From NCBI GenBank assembly GCA_015489255.1, contig WGAD01000031.1:1-26064 (forward strand): a stretch of 26,064 nt of DNA. Direction: 5' to 3'. This DNA is from Anaerolineales bacterium (GTDB lineage: Bacteria; Chloroflexota; Anaerolineae; Anaerolineales; Villigracilaceae). Each line of letters opens with the position of its first letter. Positions within the stretch are counted from its first letter, which is position 1. The position numbers and the translations under genes were made by a program. The notes below the pieces were generated by a model that made no database searches, had not been told where the DNA came from, and saw only the letters and a list, made by a program, of their open reading frames with translations. This document shows positions 1,859 to 12,271 of the stretch, one piece after another.

Positions 1859-2518
1859 ATGCTGAATTTGAAAAAAGTCTTCGCTCGTCTCCCTGTGGCC
1901 CGTTCCACGCGCGCTTATGAATTCGGCCTGGATCTACTGCCCGGACTGCCAGCTGCCCCTCGCTTGCTGGAAATCGGCACGGGGCAAGGCTACAGCGCCG
2001 CCTGGCTCAGCCGCCGCTTTCCGCAGGGACAGGTGCTCTCTCTGGACATTCAGCGCACCTGCCTGAAGCGAGAAAATCTGGCCTTCGGCCCCCGCCGCCC
2101 AGATTTTATCCAGGCAACCGCTCCATCCCTGCCGCTGGCCGCTGCCAGTTGCGATGCTGTTCTGCTGGTCATGACCTTCCACTGTCTGCCAGCGCCGCAA
2201 CAGGTGATACACGAAGCAGCGCGCGTCCTGCGCCCCGGCGGCTGGCTGCTGCTGGCCGATGTCAACGGCCAGCACTGGCTGAAAACGCCCTTTGAATGGG
2301 TCGAACACATCGGCATCAGCCCCCTGACCAAAGCCTACACCGCCGGTGAAATCGACGCCCTTTGCCAGCACGCCGGCCTCAGCCAGCGACAGGCCCACTG
2401 GCGCCCAGGGAAAGAAGGCGGCTTTATGATGTGGTTCACAGCCCGCAAACCAGAGGGCCACACCATCGATGCGCAGGCTGCGCCTATCACCCCGCCAGGG
2501 AGATCACAAGGTCTCTGA
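1859..2518 (+). CDS. Class I SAM-dependent methyltransferase
   Basis: This 219-residue protein has the Rossmann fold of Methyltransf_11/UbiE-like enzymes. Motif I is LLEIGTGQG (residues 36-44), the acidic post-I loop is VLSLDIQ, and the downstream motif ARVLRPGGWLLLADV is the usual hydrophobic strand after motif III. The substrate is not recognisable. An AAGGA site precedes the ATG by 7 nt. The C-terminal 20 or so residues look like a poorly conserved tail, and the last 15 bp overlap the 3' end of the convergent ccdA-like gene, so the two transcripts would be antisense there. It is divergent from the tupA-like gene across a 59-bp promoter region. Confidence 0.85.
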   Translation: MLNLKKVFARLPVARSTRAYEFGLDLLPGLPAAPRLLEIGTGQGYSAAWLSRRFPQGQVLSLDIQRTCLKRENLAFGPRRPDFIQATAPSLPLAAASCDAVLLVMTFHCLPAPQQVIHEAARVLRPGGWLLLADVNGQHWLKTPFEWVEHIGISPLTKAYTAGEIDALCQHAGLSQRQAHWRPGKEGGFMMWFTARKPEGHTIDAQAAPITPPGRSQGL

Positions 2519-3247
2519 AGGCTCCAAAGCGTGTCCGCCAAGATAGCCGATATAGGCCGGCACCAGCGGCAAGACACAGGGGGAAAGAAAAGAAACCAGC
2601 CCGGCCAGAATAGCCAGGAAATAGGTCGGCGTTACCTCTGCCGCCAGAGGCAAATCGGGGAAAAACCCGTTTCGCTGGGCCCAAATGGCAATGGCGGTTA
2701 ACTGGTTGGTAAACAACATCAACCCAATGACCAGCAAAAACACCCCGTTGATAATTTGAATGCTACGCATATAACGGCGGAAACGCTGCACCATCTCACT
2801 GGCGCGCCCAATTCCGGCGCCAATTGCCAGGAACGGAAGGGCCAATCCGAGCGCATACCCGCTGGACAAAACCATCGCCTGGACGCTGTTTTGCGCGCTC
2901 AACCCCATGGTCAAGATCGCGCCTAGCGTCGTTCCAATACAGGGCGTCCACCCTGCTGCAAAGAAAACCCCCATCAGCACGGAAGCCGCCACCCCCCGGC
3001 GCTTTCCGGCAACAAAATCTGGCCGCGTATCATAGGCCAGCGCCGGAATATGAATCAATCCCAGCGTATGCAAGCCGAAAGCCATAACGACAACGCCCCC
3101 AATCTTGGCTAGCAAGAGTTTGTAACTCCCAAACGCCCGCCCCAACAAAGTAGCGGAACCACCCCAGCCGATCACAAAAACGAGGGAAAAACCCACCACA
3201 AAGGCCAGGGCATGAAGAAAAACACGGGTTCGTTGGCTTGCGTTCAT
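2504..3247 (-). CDS. ccdA: CcdA/DsbD-type thiol-disulfide transmembrane protein, circularly permuted
   Basis: This six-helix membrane protein of 247 residues belongs to the CcdA/DsbD family, which carries reducing equivalents from cytoplasmic thioredoxin to the outside for cytochrome c maturation. Both redox cysteine motifs are present: FFAAGWTPCIGTTLGAI in the middle (usual helix 4) and SFLSPCVLPLVPAY near the end. In normal CcdA the second motif is in helix 1 at the N-terminus; here the chain begins with the usual helix-2 sequence (FVVGFSLVFVIG) and the helix-1 sequence comes last, followed by only about 15 residues. A stop codon lies in frame upstream, so no N-terminal copy is hidden. I use the ATG at 3247, preceded by AAGAAGGG; a TTG at 3265 is less likely. 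It is divergent from a c-type cytochrome gene, a likely client. Confidence 0.88.
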   Translation of the reverse strand: MNASQRTRVFLHALAFVVGFSLVFVIGWGGSATLLGRAFGSYKLLLAKIGGVVVMAFGLHTLGLIHIPALAYDTRPDFVAGKRRGVAASVLMGVFFAAGWTPCIGTTLGAILTMGLSAQNSVQAMVLSSGYALGLALPFLAIGAGIGRASEMVQRFRRYMRSIQIINGVFLLVIGLMLFTNQLTAIAIWAQRNGFFPDLPLAAEVTPTYFLAILAGLVSFLSPCVLPLVPAYIGYLGGHALEPSETL

Positions 3248-3295
3248 GGTTGCCCTTCTTTCCAAAAAATTACCGGTGACATTTCAGCCGCGCTC

Positions 3296-3401: not shown

Positions 3402-3466
3402 AATTGGGAAACCAATGGTCGTTCCCATTCCGCTCATCTCCGATCATCATCAGGAGAACCCCTAAA

Positions 3467-3958
3467 ATGACAAAAAAAGCCTGGCTCATTCCCACCCTCT
3501 TCCTGGTCGGAAGCCTTCTGTTTGCAGCCTGCCTTCCCGGCGGCAACGGGTTGGACTGGCCCGGCCGTACATTTGATTCCAATGGCGCCCGCATTTTCTA
3601 CACAGCCACCAATGAAAATGGTGAACGCATCCGCTACAGCGGCGGGCCAGCGGCCGGCGGCATGATGGGCGGAGGGTTGGCCTGCGCCTCCTGCCACGGC
3701 CCGGATGGTCGTGGTGGAGAACGCTATATTCACATGCAAACCATCAACGCACCCGATATTCGTTATGTCGCCCTGGCCGCCGATGAAGGCGAAGGCGGGC
3801 ACGAAGGCGCAGAAACTTACGATCTGGAAACCTTCCGCATGGCTGTTGTCGAGGGGCGTCATCCCGATGGCGAACGCCTCGATAGCATAATGCCTCGCTG
3901 GCAATTAAGCGATCAAGACCTGGCTGACTTGCTAGAGTTTTTGAAAACACTTCCTTGA
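3467..3958 (+). CDS. Monohaem c-type cytochrome lipoprotein
   Basis: This 163-residue secreted electron carrier has a signal peptide ending in FAAC, with Cys22 as the probable lipidated residue. One haem-binding motif is present, CASCH at residues 73-77, and the likely axial methionine is Met142 in MPRW, as in class I cytochromes. The C-terminal helix LADLLEFLKTL is typical of the fold. Gly/Met-rich sequence precedes the haem site, and the stretch between CxxCH and Met142 is longer (about 65 residues) than in a minimal cytochrome c. AGGAG precedes the ATG by about 10 nt; an upstream in-frame TTG at 3404 is rejected because the signal sequence would then be buried. It is divergent from ccdA and followed by a terminator, so it is monocistronic. 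Redox partners are unknown. Confidence 0.88.
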   Translation: MTKKAWLIPTLFLVGSLLFAACLPGGNGLDWPGRTFDSNGARIFYTATNENGERIRYSGGPAAGGMMGGGLACASCHGPDGRGGERYIHMQTINAPDIRYVALAADEGEGGHEGAETYDLETFRMAVVEGRHPDGERLDSIMPRWQLSDQDLADLLEFLKTLP

Positions 3959-10044: not shown

Positions 10045-10922
10045 CCCTCTGGGGAGACAGGGGACGCAGAGCCGAAAGCCTGAGCCAAAAAGCCGTGCAC
10101 ACGCGGCCAAAACTCCGGATGGGTGCAGCAATTGCTGTGCCCTTTGCCCGGGACGATCCACAGCGTGCTCTGCCCGGGAGGTGCGGCCTGCTGAAGCTGG
10201 CGAGCCTGCTCCAGGGAGACCGTCTCGTCCCGCTCGCCATGGATGATCAAAAACTGCGCTGCCGCCTGCCCAATGTGGTTGACCGGCGCGATGGCGTCGA
10301 GATCTATGCGGTAACGCCATTGCATAAAAGCAAAGAGGAAACGGATGATGAAATCTGGCAGGCCTTTTTTCTCCATTTCCCAGCGCATGGTATCGATCGG
10401 GTGGCCGATGGCGCCCACCGTGACAACGGCGCGGATTTGCGGGCAGAGACCAGCGGCGTTGATAGCTGCTCCGCCGCCGATGGACAAGCCCAGGATACCG
10501 ATCTGCTGCGCGGCCTGCGGCTGCTGGTTTTCCAGGTAGCGGACAGCGGCGCAGGTATCTTCGGTAAACGTCCACACCGTCGGGTGGGGAATGCGATCGC
10601 TATCGCCGTGGTTGCGGGCATCGAAGGCCAGCAGGTGATACCCCTGCGCGTGCAACTGGCGGATATGCCGCAACATGCGTTCACGGTTGCGGCTCCAGCC
10701 GTGCACCAGCACCAGCGTTGGCCGCCCTGTCTGCCCGGGGATCCACCAGGCGGCCAGGCTTTCGCCGCTTTCCAGCGGCAGACGGACTTCCTCGAAGGGG
10801 ATGTCGTCGTCCGCGGGTGTCCGCCTGGGCGACGTGATTTTGTAAGCGTACATGCGTTCCATCAACCGATCGATCAGCAGCAAGCCGAGAATCAGCCCTG
10901 CCAGCAGCCATAACCAGGCCAT
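10038..10922 (-). CDS. Alpha/beta hydrolase with N-terminal membrane anchor
   Basis: This 294-residue serine hydrolase begins with a hydrophobic helix (about residues 2-17), so it is probably membrane-tethered. The oxyanion-hole segment LVHGWSRN starts near residue 72. The nucleophile elbow is GLSIGG with Ser147, and the likely acid and base are Asp232 (HGERDETV) and His262 (PGKGHSN), giving a complete triad. FDARNHGDSD is typical of this branch (DUF1749/BAAT-like and acylaminoacyl-peptidase-like hydrolases). AGGAGG precedes the ATG. It is the last gene of a five-gene minus-strand operon, 9 bp after the MazG-like gene, and overlaps the E1 gene end. The substrate is unknown. Confidence 0.9.
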   Translation of the reverse strand: MAWLWLLAGLILGLLLIDRLMERMYAYKITSPRRTPADDDIPFEEVRLPLESGESLAAWWIPGQTGRPTLVLVHGWSRNRERMLRHIRQLHAQGYHLLAFDARNHGDSDRIPHPTVWTFTEDTCAAVRYLENQQPQAAQQIGILGLSIGGGAAINAAGLCPQIRAVVTVGAIGHPIDTMRWEMEKKGLPDFIIRFLFAFMQWRYRIDLDAIAPVNHIGQAAAQFLIIHGERDETVSLEQARQLQQAAPPGQSTLWIVPGKGHSNCCTHPEFWPRVHGFLAQAFGSASPVSPEGQ

Positions 10923-10931
10923 GTTTTCCTC

Positions 10932-11261
10932 CTAGCGATGATCGCCATCCCCGCGGATGACGCCGCGAGATTGCCGATCGGCAAGTTTGGCGATGTTGTA
11001 GCGGGCGATCTCCTCGAGGCTGAAGCCCAGTTCCGTGGCGATCTGGGTCAGATACCAGAGCACGTCGCCCAGCTCGGCTTTCAAATCCTCGCGGATCGTT
11101 TCATCCAGCTGGCCGTTGCGGTCGCGGAAGAGTTTTTTGATCTTCCCGGCCACCTCGCCGGCTTCATTGGTCAGCCCAAGGGTGGGGTAAACGATCGGGT
11201 GCCCGATGGCCGGATATTTGGCCGTGCGGCGCGAAAGGCGCTGGTATTCGGCAAAATCCAT
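10932..11261 (-). CDS. MazG-like nucleotide pyrophosphohydrolase
   Basis: This 109-residue all-alpha NTP pyrophosphohydrolase is of the short MazG-like type. The metal-binding signature is complete: EAGE (Glu33, Glu36) and ELGD (Glu63, Asp66), with basic KIKKLFRDR between. Such enzymes hydrolyse (d)NTPs, including damaged nucleotides, to monophosphates and act in the cytoplasm as nucleotide-pool cleaners. GGAGG lies about 7 nt before the ATG. The gene starts 2 bp after the LLM oxidoreductase stop, so translation is probably coupled. The normal MazG partner genes are absent. Confidence 0.9.
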   Translation of the reverse strand: MDFAEYQRLSRRTAKYPAIGHPIVYPTLGLTNEAGEVAGKIKKLFRDRNGQLDETIREDLKAELGDVLWYLTQIATELGFSLEEIARYNIAKLADRQSRGVIRGDGDHR

Positions 11262-11263
11262 GG

Positions 11264-12271
11264 TTAGCCTCCGTGAAAGGCTGTGAGCAATGTCTTCCAG
11301 AAGTCATCGCGCTGCCCGGGGACAAAGGGGGCGTAGAGCGTCAGCCGATCGGCCAGCCCCTGGTAGCGGGAATACAGCGCATCGGCCAACGCCGCAGCGT
11401 TGGGGGCGCGGGTGACGAAGGCGTCTAGCATTTCGTCGCTGATCAGGGCGGGCATTTGTTCCCATTGGCCGCGGGCGGCCAGGGCCGAGAGTTGTGCGGC
11501 GGTTTCCTCCCAGCCGTGCAGCTTCATCACGCGTCGGTAAGAGGGGGTAGAAGCGTAAAAGGCAATTTGCTCACGGGCAAAGGCCAGTTCTTGTTCATCC
11601 AGCGCGGTGAAAACCGTGACCGAAAGAGCTACTTGCTGGCGGCTGCGCCCGGTTTTTTGGGCGCCCTTTTCTATCGCCGGCAGGATGACCTCTTGCAGGT
11701 AGCGCGGAGAATGGAAGGGGTGCGCCAGGAAGCCATCGCAGACTTCGCCGGCCAGCCGCGCCAGCCCGGTGTTGACGCCGGCGATGTAGATGGGGATATC
11801 TGGATGTTCTACCGGCCCCGGATGGAAGAACGGAGACATCAAGGTGATTTGATAATGTTCACTGCGGTAATTGAGCTTTCCGCCGTGCTGCCAGTGATGC
11901 CAGAGGGCGCGGATGGCGCCGATCTGGTCGCGGAGCTTGCCGACGACGGAATCGGGCCAGTCCATGCCGAAACGACGGGTGATGTGTCCTTTGACTTGCG
12001 TACCCAGGCCAAGGATAAAGCGCCCTGCGGAAGCCTGCGCCAGGTCCCAGGCTGTGTAGGCCAGGTCTCCCGGCGAGCGGGCAAAAGCAATGGCAACCGC
12101 GGTGCCCATTGCCAGTCGACGGGTATGTTTGGCGATCAGGGCGTGTGGCAGGAAGGGGTTGTGTTTGGTTTCGCTTGTCCACAGGCCATCGAAGCCAAAG
12201 TCTTCGGCAGCGCGGGCGACCGGCGGCACGTTGCCCAGGGGCATGGGCGGCAGGGCGGCATCGAGTTTCAT
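11264..12271 (-). CDS. LLM-class F420-dependent oxidoreductase
   Basis: This 335-residue protein has the luciferase-like TIM barrel. N-terminal strand KLDAALPPMPLGNV, then FGFDGLWTSETKHNPFLP, LAMGTAVAIAFARSP and FILGLGTQVKGH (the flavin-phosphate-binding region) match the family branch called probable F420-dependent oxidoreductase (MSMEG_2256-like). F420 is used for hydride transfer, but FMN cannot be excluded. I start at the ATG at 12271, which has AAGGAG upstream; an in-frame TTG at 12286 would overlap the preceding stop. It lies between the M42 peptidase and the MazG-like gene in one operon. The substrate is unknown; an F420 biosynthesis search in the genome would support the cofactor call. 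Confidence 0.9.
   Translation of the reverse strand: MKLDAALPPMPLGNVPPVARAAEDFGFDGLWTSETKHNPFLPHALIAKHTRRLAMGTAVAIAFARSPGDLAYTAWDLAQASAGRFILGLGTQVKGHITRRFGMDWPDSVVGKLRDQIGAIRALWHHWQHGGKLNYRSEHYQITLMSPFFHPGPVEHPDIPIYIAGVNTGLARLAGEVCDGFLAHPFHSPRYLQEVILPAIEKGAQKTGRSRQQVALSVTVFTALDEQELAFAREQIAFYASTPSYRRVMKLHGWEETAAQLSALAARGQWEQMPALISDEMLDAFVTRAPNAAALADALYSRYQGLADRLTLYAPFVPGQRDDFWKTLLTAFHGG

Follow-up and report, generated by a model that had tools for sequence, protein, structure and literature searches.

A CcdA homologue with its first helix at the C-terminus, a probably functional and recurrent circular permutation

CcdA has been called the smallest elevator-type protein; its transmembrane helices (TM) 1 and 4 are described as moving in an O-shaped scaffold, by a mechanism that awaits confirmation (PMC7329351). 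Here we describe a gene in a 26,064-nucleotide stretch of an Anaerolineales bacterium (contig WGAD01000031.1; this whole stretch is called the window), whose product is a DsbD_TM/CcdA homologue with helix 1 at the C-terminus. We consider it very likely that this product is a functional, natural circular permutant of CcdA, for which we infer the topology, the docking of the relocated helix, the electron transfer and an origin by duplication. To our knowledge, natural circular permutations of helical membrane proteins have rarely been documented, and none is known for an elevator-type carrier. The initial annotation of the window, made from the sequence alone, had known of no description of such a permutation of CcdA, and none was found in the literature that we searched.

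Helix order and homology to CcdA

The permuted ccdA open reading frame (ORF) runs on the minus strand from an ATG at 3247 to a stop at 2506..2504 (Table 1). Its protein begins with FLHALAFVVGFSLVF, which is helix 2 in ordinary CcdA, carries the helix-4 motif GWTPCIG at residues 99-105, and has the helix-1 motif SFLSPCVLPLVPAYIGYLGG at the C-terminus, with exactly 15 residues between SPCVLPLVPAY and the stop where about 15 had been estimated. The match to the Pfam profile DsbD_TM (PF02683) reaches 40.1 bits against a cut-off of 27.1, and its best stretch begins at profile position 39 of 219. A phmmer search of PDB sequences returned 5vkv as the sole match at E <= 1 (E 1.2e-26), the solved CcdA of Thermus thermophilus. 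The initial annotation had suggested looking for an alignment that wraps from the C- to the N-terminus, and this is what we see: residues 211-240 align to chain positions 7-36 (30.1 bits), and residues 6-188 to positions 36-208 (73.8 bits). Together with the late start in the profile, the wrapped alignment bears out that the redox motif lies in the last helix and that the protein opens on normal helix-2 sequence. The helix order is 2-3-4-5-6-1 and departs from the TM1 to TM6 order of CcdA, so that we file the protein as a permuted variant derived from CcdA, and not as an ordinary CcdA.

Could an ordinary helix 1 be hidden upstream? Translation of the preceding 150 nucleotides meets an in-frame stop 12 codons 5' of the ATG. 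When all six frames of the window were scanned for P[CS]xxP-type motifs, 6 matches came up, of which a single one, the SFLSPCVLPLVPAYIGYLGG of the permuted ccdA itself, is CcdA-like, the other 5 being classed as unrelated by eye. The earlier argument that the upstream stop excludes a hidden N-terminal copy therefore holds, and we rule such a copy out.

As for the expected redox pair, C224 in the PCxxP motif of TM1 and C103 in the PCxG motif of TM4 are invariant in our alignments A1, A2, A3 and A4. Across alignments of 22 and 119 diverse permuted proteins, C103, C224, P102, P223 and P227 are all invariant, and P230 is invariant among the 22 and conserved at 90% or more among the 119. The CcdA fold consists of two inverted three-helix repeats that make up the O-shaped scaffold, TM1 lying next to TM4. 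The predicted models, with a predicted local distance difference test score (pLDDT) of 76 and 80 and a predicted template modelling score (pTM) of 0.72 and 0.74, match 5vkv across helices 2-6 only, and in them the last helix is interrupted at SPCVLPLV. The C-terminal TM1 presumably docks in the helix-1 site. It might instead complete a neighbouring protomer, giving a domain-swapped dimer that is functional only as an oligomer: the long TM6-TM1 linker, some 25 residues and modelled with low confidence (pLDDT about 64 over residues 191-210 of the AlphaFold2, AF2, model), would permit a swap, and the invariance of both cysteines would suit it. Ordinary CcdA is nevertheless described as monomeric (PMC7329351), and a plain intramolecular fold requires no extra assumption. 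We consider such a swap improbable and favour docking within one chain.

Table 1. Features of the permuted ccdA gene and its divergent neighbour, in window coordinates
Feature	Position	Strand	Basis
Permuted ccdA gene, 247 residues, helix order TM2-TM3-TM4-TM5-TM6-TM1	2504..3247	-	Pfam DsbD_TM; wrapped alignment to 5vkv
N-terminus and TM2 (residues 1-32), normal helix-2 start	3152..3247	-	Alignment to 5vkv; model
TM4 redox motif TPCIG (residues 101-105), Cys103 invariant	2933..2947	-	Alignments
TM6-TM1 linker (residues 182-208) with 1.2 K+R on average; probably extracytoplasmic	2624..2704	-	Residue counts; model
Relocated TM1 (residues 207-240), broken helix 207-220 / 228-240 in the AF2 model	2528..2629	-	
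TM1 redox motif SPCVLPLVP (residues 222-230), Cys224 invariant	2558..2584	-	5vkv alignment; alignments of relatives
GAAGGG ribosome-binding-like stretch, 5 nucleotides before the ATG	3253..3258	-	By eye
In-frame stop codon, 12 codons 5' of the ATG	3284..3286	-	Translation of upstream 150 nucleotides
Divergent neighbour, predicted c-type cytochrome lipoprotein (PF00034, CASCHG)	3467..3958	+	Scan of 3404-3958; start and lipoprotein assignment made by eye

Spread and history of the permuted order

Throughout, G, L and P numbers are our handles for genomes, loci and listed proteins. The 34 permuted loci that we compared fall into group A (18, with the window), B (2), C (6) and D (8). Predicted proteins were searched with three queries (the window protein and two remoter relatives, L136 and L131), and each list holds the best 120 of thousands of matches including its own query, giving 360 proteins, 3 of them queries. 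Among the best 120 for the window protein, the 119 others share 62-74% identity at 94-100% coverage, and 120/120 have a PC motif at the C-terminus and none at the N-terminus. Over the matches listed for all three queries, the motif is C-terminal only in 354/360; by eye it is also C-terminal in P0229, as PCFLP, and in P0228, which extends beyond it, and P0207, P0208, P0210 and P0211 (4/360) lack the C-terminal end. An N-terminal helix-1 copy, or two copies, occurs in 0/360 of the matches listed. Where source names are shown, most of the permuted proteins go by CcdA or cytochrome c biogenesis protein. Such names give no hint of the relocated helix 1, and models that follow the chain order of ordinary CcdA could misplace it. 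Some copies are enlarged. P0026 and P0110 are permuted CcdAs with one and two N-terminal heavy-metal-associated (HMA) domains, respectively, which would be cytoplasmic. An insert of about 100 mostly hydrophobic residues lies between TM2 and TM3 in L042 (7521-8546), L115 (7100-8143) and L134 (7602-8609), and two Nitrospirota permuted CcdAs of tree group A+B, L262 (7266-8204) and L263 (7779-8717), have about 40 extra residues between TM3 and TM4.

To survey genomes, we used a profile of 22 permuted proteins (A3), against which permuted genes appear as one full-length row and ordinary genes as two rows. Phylum names follow the record titles of the loci taken as centres. The permuted form is present in 28/400 Chloroflexota genomes (E <= 1e-64), with 32 rows, all read except those of G259 and G266. 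Thirty-one of these span the profile, and the row of G325 stops early through a frameshift before helix 1; this group C gene (L181, G325:C1, about 721977-722594) loses its frame in the linker before TM1, by sequencing error or as a broken copy. Deinococcota have full-length rows in 21/111 genomes (E <= 1e-40; 22 rows), with an ordinary-type row too in 17 of the 21, and helix 1 stands only at the end in 10/10 of the rows read. Single genomes of Acidobacteriota (1/149) and Bacillota (1/199) and two of Nitrospirota (2/118) carry the permuted form, all four read and confirmed. No permuted form was found in Pseudomonadota (0/200) or Gemmatimonadota (0/150), at the thresholds of 1e-52 to 1e-58 applied outside Chloroflexota and Deinococcota, by which divergent permuted forms could be missed. 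The Deinococcota permuted rows scored 1e-53 to 1e-65, and the phylum counts are lower bounds. Three rows (G703, G569 and G1184) in which the match runs past helix 6 only through stop codons were excluded from the permuted count, and plasmid relatives (366 records, all below 60% identity) were left unused, the order of their joined pieces not having been checked. The Bacillota copy (L261, G978) is group A-like, with 63% identity to the Chloroflexota copy L004, and may reflect a transfer or a misplaced contig.

The initial annotation had supposed that the order could be a shared trait of this lineage and had proposed a look at related genomes. The order is indeed conserved in relatives, and its spread exceeds one lineage: Chloroflexota and Deinococcota both have it, as do, in rare cases, Acidobacteriota, Nitrospirota and one assembly classed with Bacillota, which also rules out an oddity of one genus. 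The same survey answers the worry about a sequencing or assembly error. One relative, L181, is frameshifted before TM1, but hundreds of listed proteins have the permuted order in an intact frame, as do the 31 rows that span the profile in 27 Chloroflexota genomes, and with such intact homologues the chance that an assembly error, frameshift or pseudogene accounts for the window's gene is practically nil.

How often, then, did the order change? Trees were built from rotated sequences (117, 60 and 85 rows) and from TM2-TM6 alone (85 and 108 rows). The near-copies L119 and L123 were left out of the 117-row tree; the 60-row tree took 31 of 85 ordinary rows and went without L119, L123, L117, L008 and L137; the 85-row trees went without the frameshifted L181, and the 108-row tree drops 16 ordinary rows of the 85-row set and adds 39 rows. 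These trees need 4 state changes (117 and 60 rows), 5 (85 rows) and 7 (108 rows). The five places on the 85-row trees are A+B, C, D1 (L135, L136, L039 and kin), D2 (L042, L115, L134) and L009, to which the 108-row tree adds Deinococcota and the Acidobacteriota copy. Four tests of a single clade for all permuted rows reject it, with p 0.0127 (60 rows), 0.0036 (85), 0.0006 (85, TM2-TM6) and 0.0068 (108, quick tree). The scatter of permuted rows among ordinary CcdAs, together with this rejection, argues that the permutation arose repeatedly or was undone. At least two changes of helix order are indicated, be they repeated gains or a gain and a loss.

Alternatively, a single ancient permutation may have spread by descent and transfer, the scatter being due to poor resolution or to reversion to the ordinary order. 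Deep branches have weak support, the well supported (starred) branches force just 2 to 3 changes, and the tests leave a clade of A+B+C standing (p 0.20 and 0.21). Furthermore, Bacillota L234 and Nitrospirota L244/L245 group with A+B, which makes transfer likely. One origin is nevertheless at odds with all four tests above, and on the 85-row TM2-TM6 tree D1 stands with ordinary L174 and L208 at 95/87 and C with ordinary L014 at 93/91. We regard a single ancient event as rather unlikely, and prefer at least two changes of order. Whether the permutation was fixed several times independently (five Chloroflexota places plus the Deinococcota and Acidobacteriota lineages), always with TM1, and with the product fully replacing ordinary CcdA in cytochrome c maturation, is to us an evenly balanced matter. 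Neither the 360 listed proteins nor the loci read include a 7-helix intermediate, with TM1 at both ends. Recurrence in several lineages, if true, would be a clear example of a membrane protein whose topology evolution has rearranged repeatedly.

Genomic context and role in cytochrome c maturation

Of the 23 genomes that had permuted rows in one of our scans, we searched 22 for PF02683 (E <= 1e-3), leaving out G325. In 13 of the 22 (G208, G276, G304, G152, G283, G037, G262, G349, G361, G388, G319, G218 and G184; 94-99% complete), every DsbD_TM match found falls within a permuted gene. Of the remaining 9, 7 have an ordinary CcdA that passes the cut-off and covers the full profile, while the further match in G318 and in G160 is weaker; the window's genome is among the 7, its ordinary CcdA (L002, 237 residues) having FFSPCVFALVPAY at the N-terminus. 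Cytochrome c assembly genes (PF01578) are present in 13/13 sole-copy genomes. Ten of these have a CcmF-size frame (668-697 residues) and a CcmC-sized frame, in G304 divided between two contigs; in each of G388, G319 and G218 there is one CcsA-sized frame of 330-335 residues, the putative CcmF, CcmC and CcsA assignments being made from size. Being the sole DsbD_TM protein in genomes that all have cytochrome c assembly genes, the permuted protein very probably works as CcdA. CcdA is listed as the variant, in other organisms, of the E. coli counterpart (PMC3601427); as the sole copy, the permuted protein is therefore the likely provider of reductant in these genomes.

The neighbouring genes of relatives point the same way. 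Of the 16 group B, C and D loci, 8 have a CcmC-like gene no more than 2 kb upstream, 7 of them in sole-copy genomes, so that 7/13 of the latter have one beside the permuted ccdA. For L134, L042, L126 and L131 the best NCBIfam match of this neighbour is ccmC (TIGR01191), below its cut-off (109-131 against 186 bits). The run of genes in L134 is ccmA, ccmB, ccmC, a gap of ~1 kb, permuted ccdA and DUF2085, and in L115 ResA/TlpA-like and glutaredoxin-like genes follow the permuted ccdA. Other thioredoxin-fold neighbours are AhpC-TSA/TlpA-like (L113, L261, L267) or DsbA-like (L117; NCBIfam Rcas_1661 family, sub-cut-off). An association with cytochrome c maturation or thioredoxin partners is thus found in relatives; the window copy has only a c-type cytochrome, which is divergent. 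Its neighbours are a methyltransferase, this cytochrome and a solute-binding protein, and no ccm-like, thioredoxin-fold or P-type ATPase partner is among the window genes scanned.

For the window's group A only, a different task may be considered, in which a CcdA paralogue with the same redox chemistry serves, for example, the supply of thiols for copper handling, the ordinary copy being kept for cytochrome c maturation. Counting neighbour clusters within 7 kb, a P-type ATPase cluster occurs in 12/18 group A loci (the one checked has HMA, YHS and E1-E2 ATPase), the two homologues with N-terminal HMA domains fit such a task, and ordinary CcdA is retained in 7/10 group A genomes tested. This sits less easily with the c-type cytochrome that is the nearest divergent gene in the window, and with G184, where the only DsbD_TM proteins found are one group A and one group D copy. 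We take such a paralogue to be possible for group A, though not the reading we lean towards, and hold to a CcdA role in cytochrome c maturation for the family. A role in anti-phage defence was dropped, as the protein has no PADLOC match.

Three further observations concern the surroundings of permuted genes. In the window, the methyltransferase gene (1859-2518) converges on the permuted ccdA, and its 3' end has 15 bases (2504-2518) in common with the stop end of the latter. In L009, a second and longer DsbD_TM-like ORF of ordinary order (10800-11918; 373 residues, PCTLP near residue 74) lies 3 kb from the permuted gene. In L269, L270 and L271, of one Chloroflexota family, the ORF after permuted ccdA resembles chorismate mutase/prephenate dehydratase by eye.

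Possible mechanism and comparison with known systems

In the arrangement that we propose, the chain would be cut in the cytoplasmic TM1-TM2 loop, and TM1 joined to TM6 through an extracytoplasmic linker of ~25 residues. The number of helices being even (six), TM1 would keep its out-to-in direction and both new ends would be cytoplasmic; a mean of 2.5 lysines and arginines (K+R) ahead of TM2 (92 sequences) likewise makes a cytoplasmic N-terminus probable. The O-shaped scaffold would be retained, with Cys103 of TM4 and Cys224 of the relocated TM1 as the redox pair, and the protein would relay reductant, taken from thioredoxin in the cytoplasm, to extracytoplasmic partners of thioredoxin type (TlpA/ResA/CcmG or DsbA-like), so serving cytochrome c maturation and related tasks. 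The permuted gene most likely came about when ccdA was duplicated in tandem and fused and the outer copies of the helices were then lost, which probably happened more than once.

The relocated TM1 is one of the two helices proposed to move in the elevator. In the permuted protein its extracytoplasmic end would be tied and its cytoplasmic end free, the reverse of ordinary CcdA. If the elevator model is true, both tethers must permit equal motion, and if TM1 is static, its order matters little. Should recurrence be true, evolution would have repeatedly shown that TM1 works tethered at either its cytoplasmic or its extracytoplasmic end. As the permuted relatives alter the tether of one moving helix, they provide ready natural constructs for testing the motion of TM1 and its loop connections.

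How does the window protein compare with its described relatives? Its top NCBIfam match is the ArsG-family permease (NF040495), with which it has the superfamily in common; at 24.8 bits, and from profile position 39, it falls well short of the equivalog cut-off of 200. HMA-DsbD-type metal tolerance proteins, which are COG2836-like, resemble some permuted homologues (P0026, P0110) in having N-terminal HMA domains, whereas no such domain is present in the window protein, whose transmembrane part belongs to PF02683 and not to DsbD_2. With the transmembrane beta domain of DsbD it presumably shares the redox core fold and the role of supplying reductant to CcmG. Unlike DsbD, its 247 residues comprise the transmembrane part only, in permuted order and without the soluble N-terminal alpha and C-terminal gamma domains of thioredoxin type, and it scores 12.2 bits on the NCBIfam DsbD model against a cut-off of 330. 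The closest likeness is to CcdA (5vkv; PF02683), with homology over all six helices, both PC motifs, equal size and, in relatives of the window protein, CcdA-type partners (ccm-like genes and TlpA/ResA-like thioredoxins). It differs in its C-terminal TM1, in the cut TM1-TM2 loop, in the joining of TM6 to TM1, and in that both its ends are predicted to be cytoplasmic, whereas those of ordinary CcdA are extracytoplasmic. The permuted protein is probably a functional and recurrent circular permutation, and a variant of the known CcdA.
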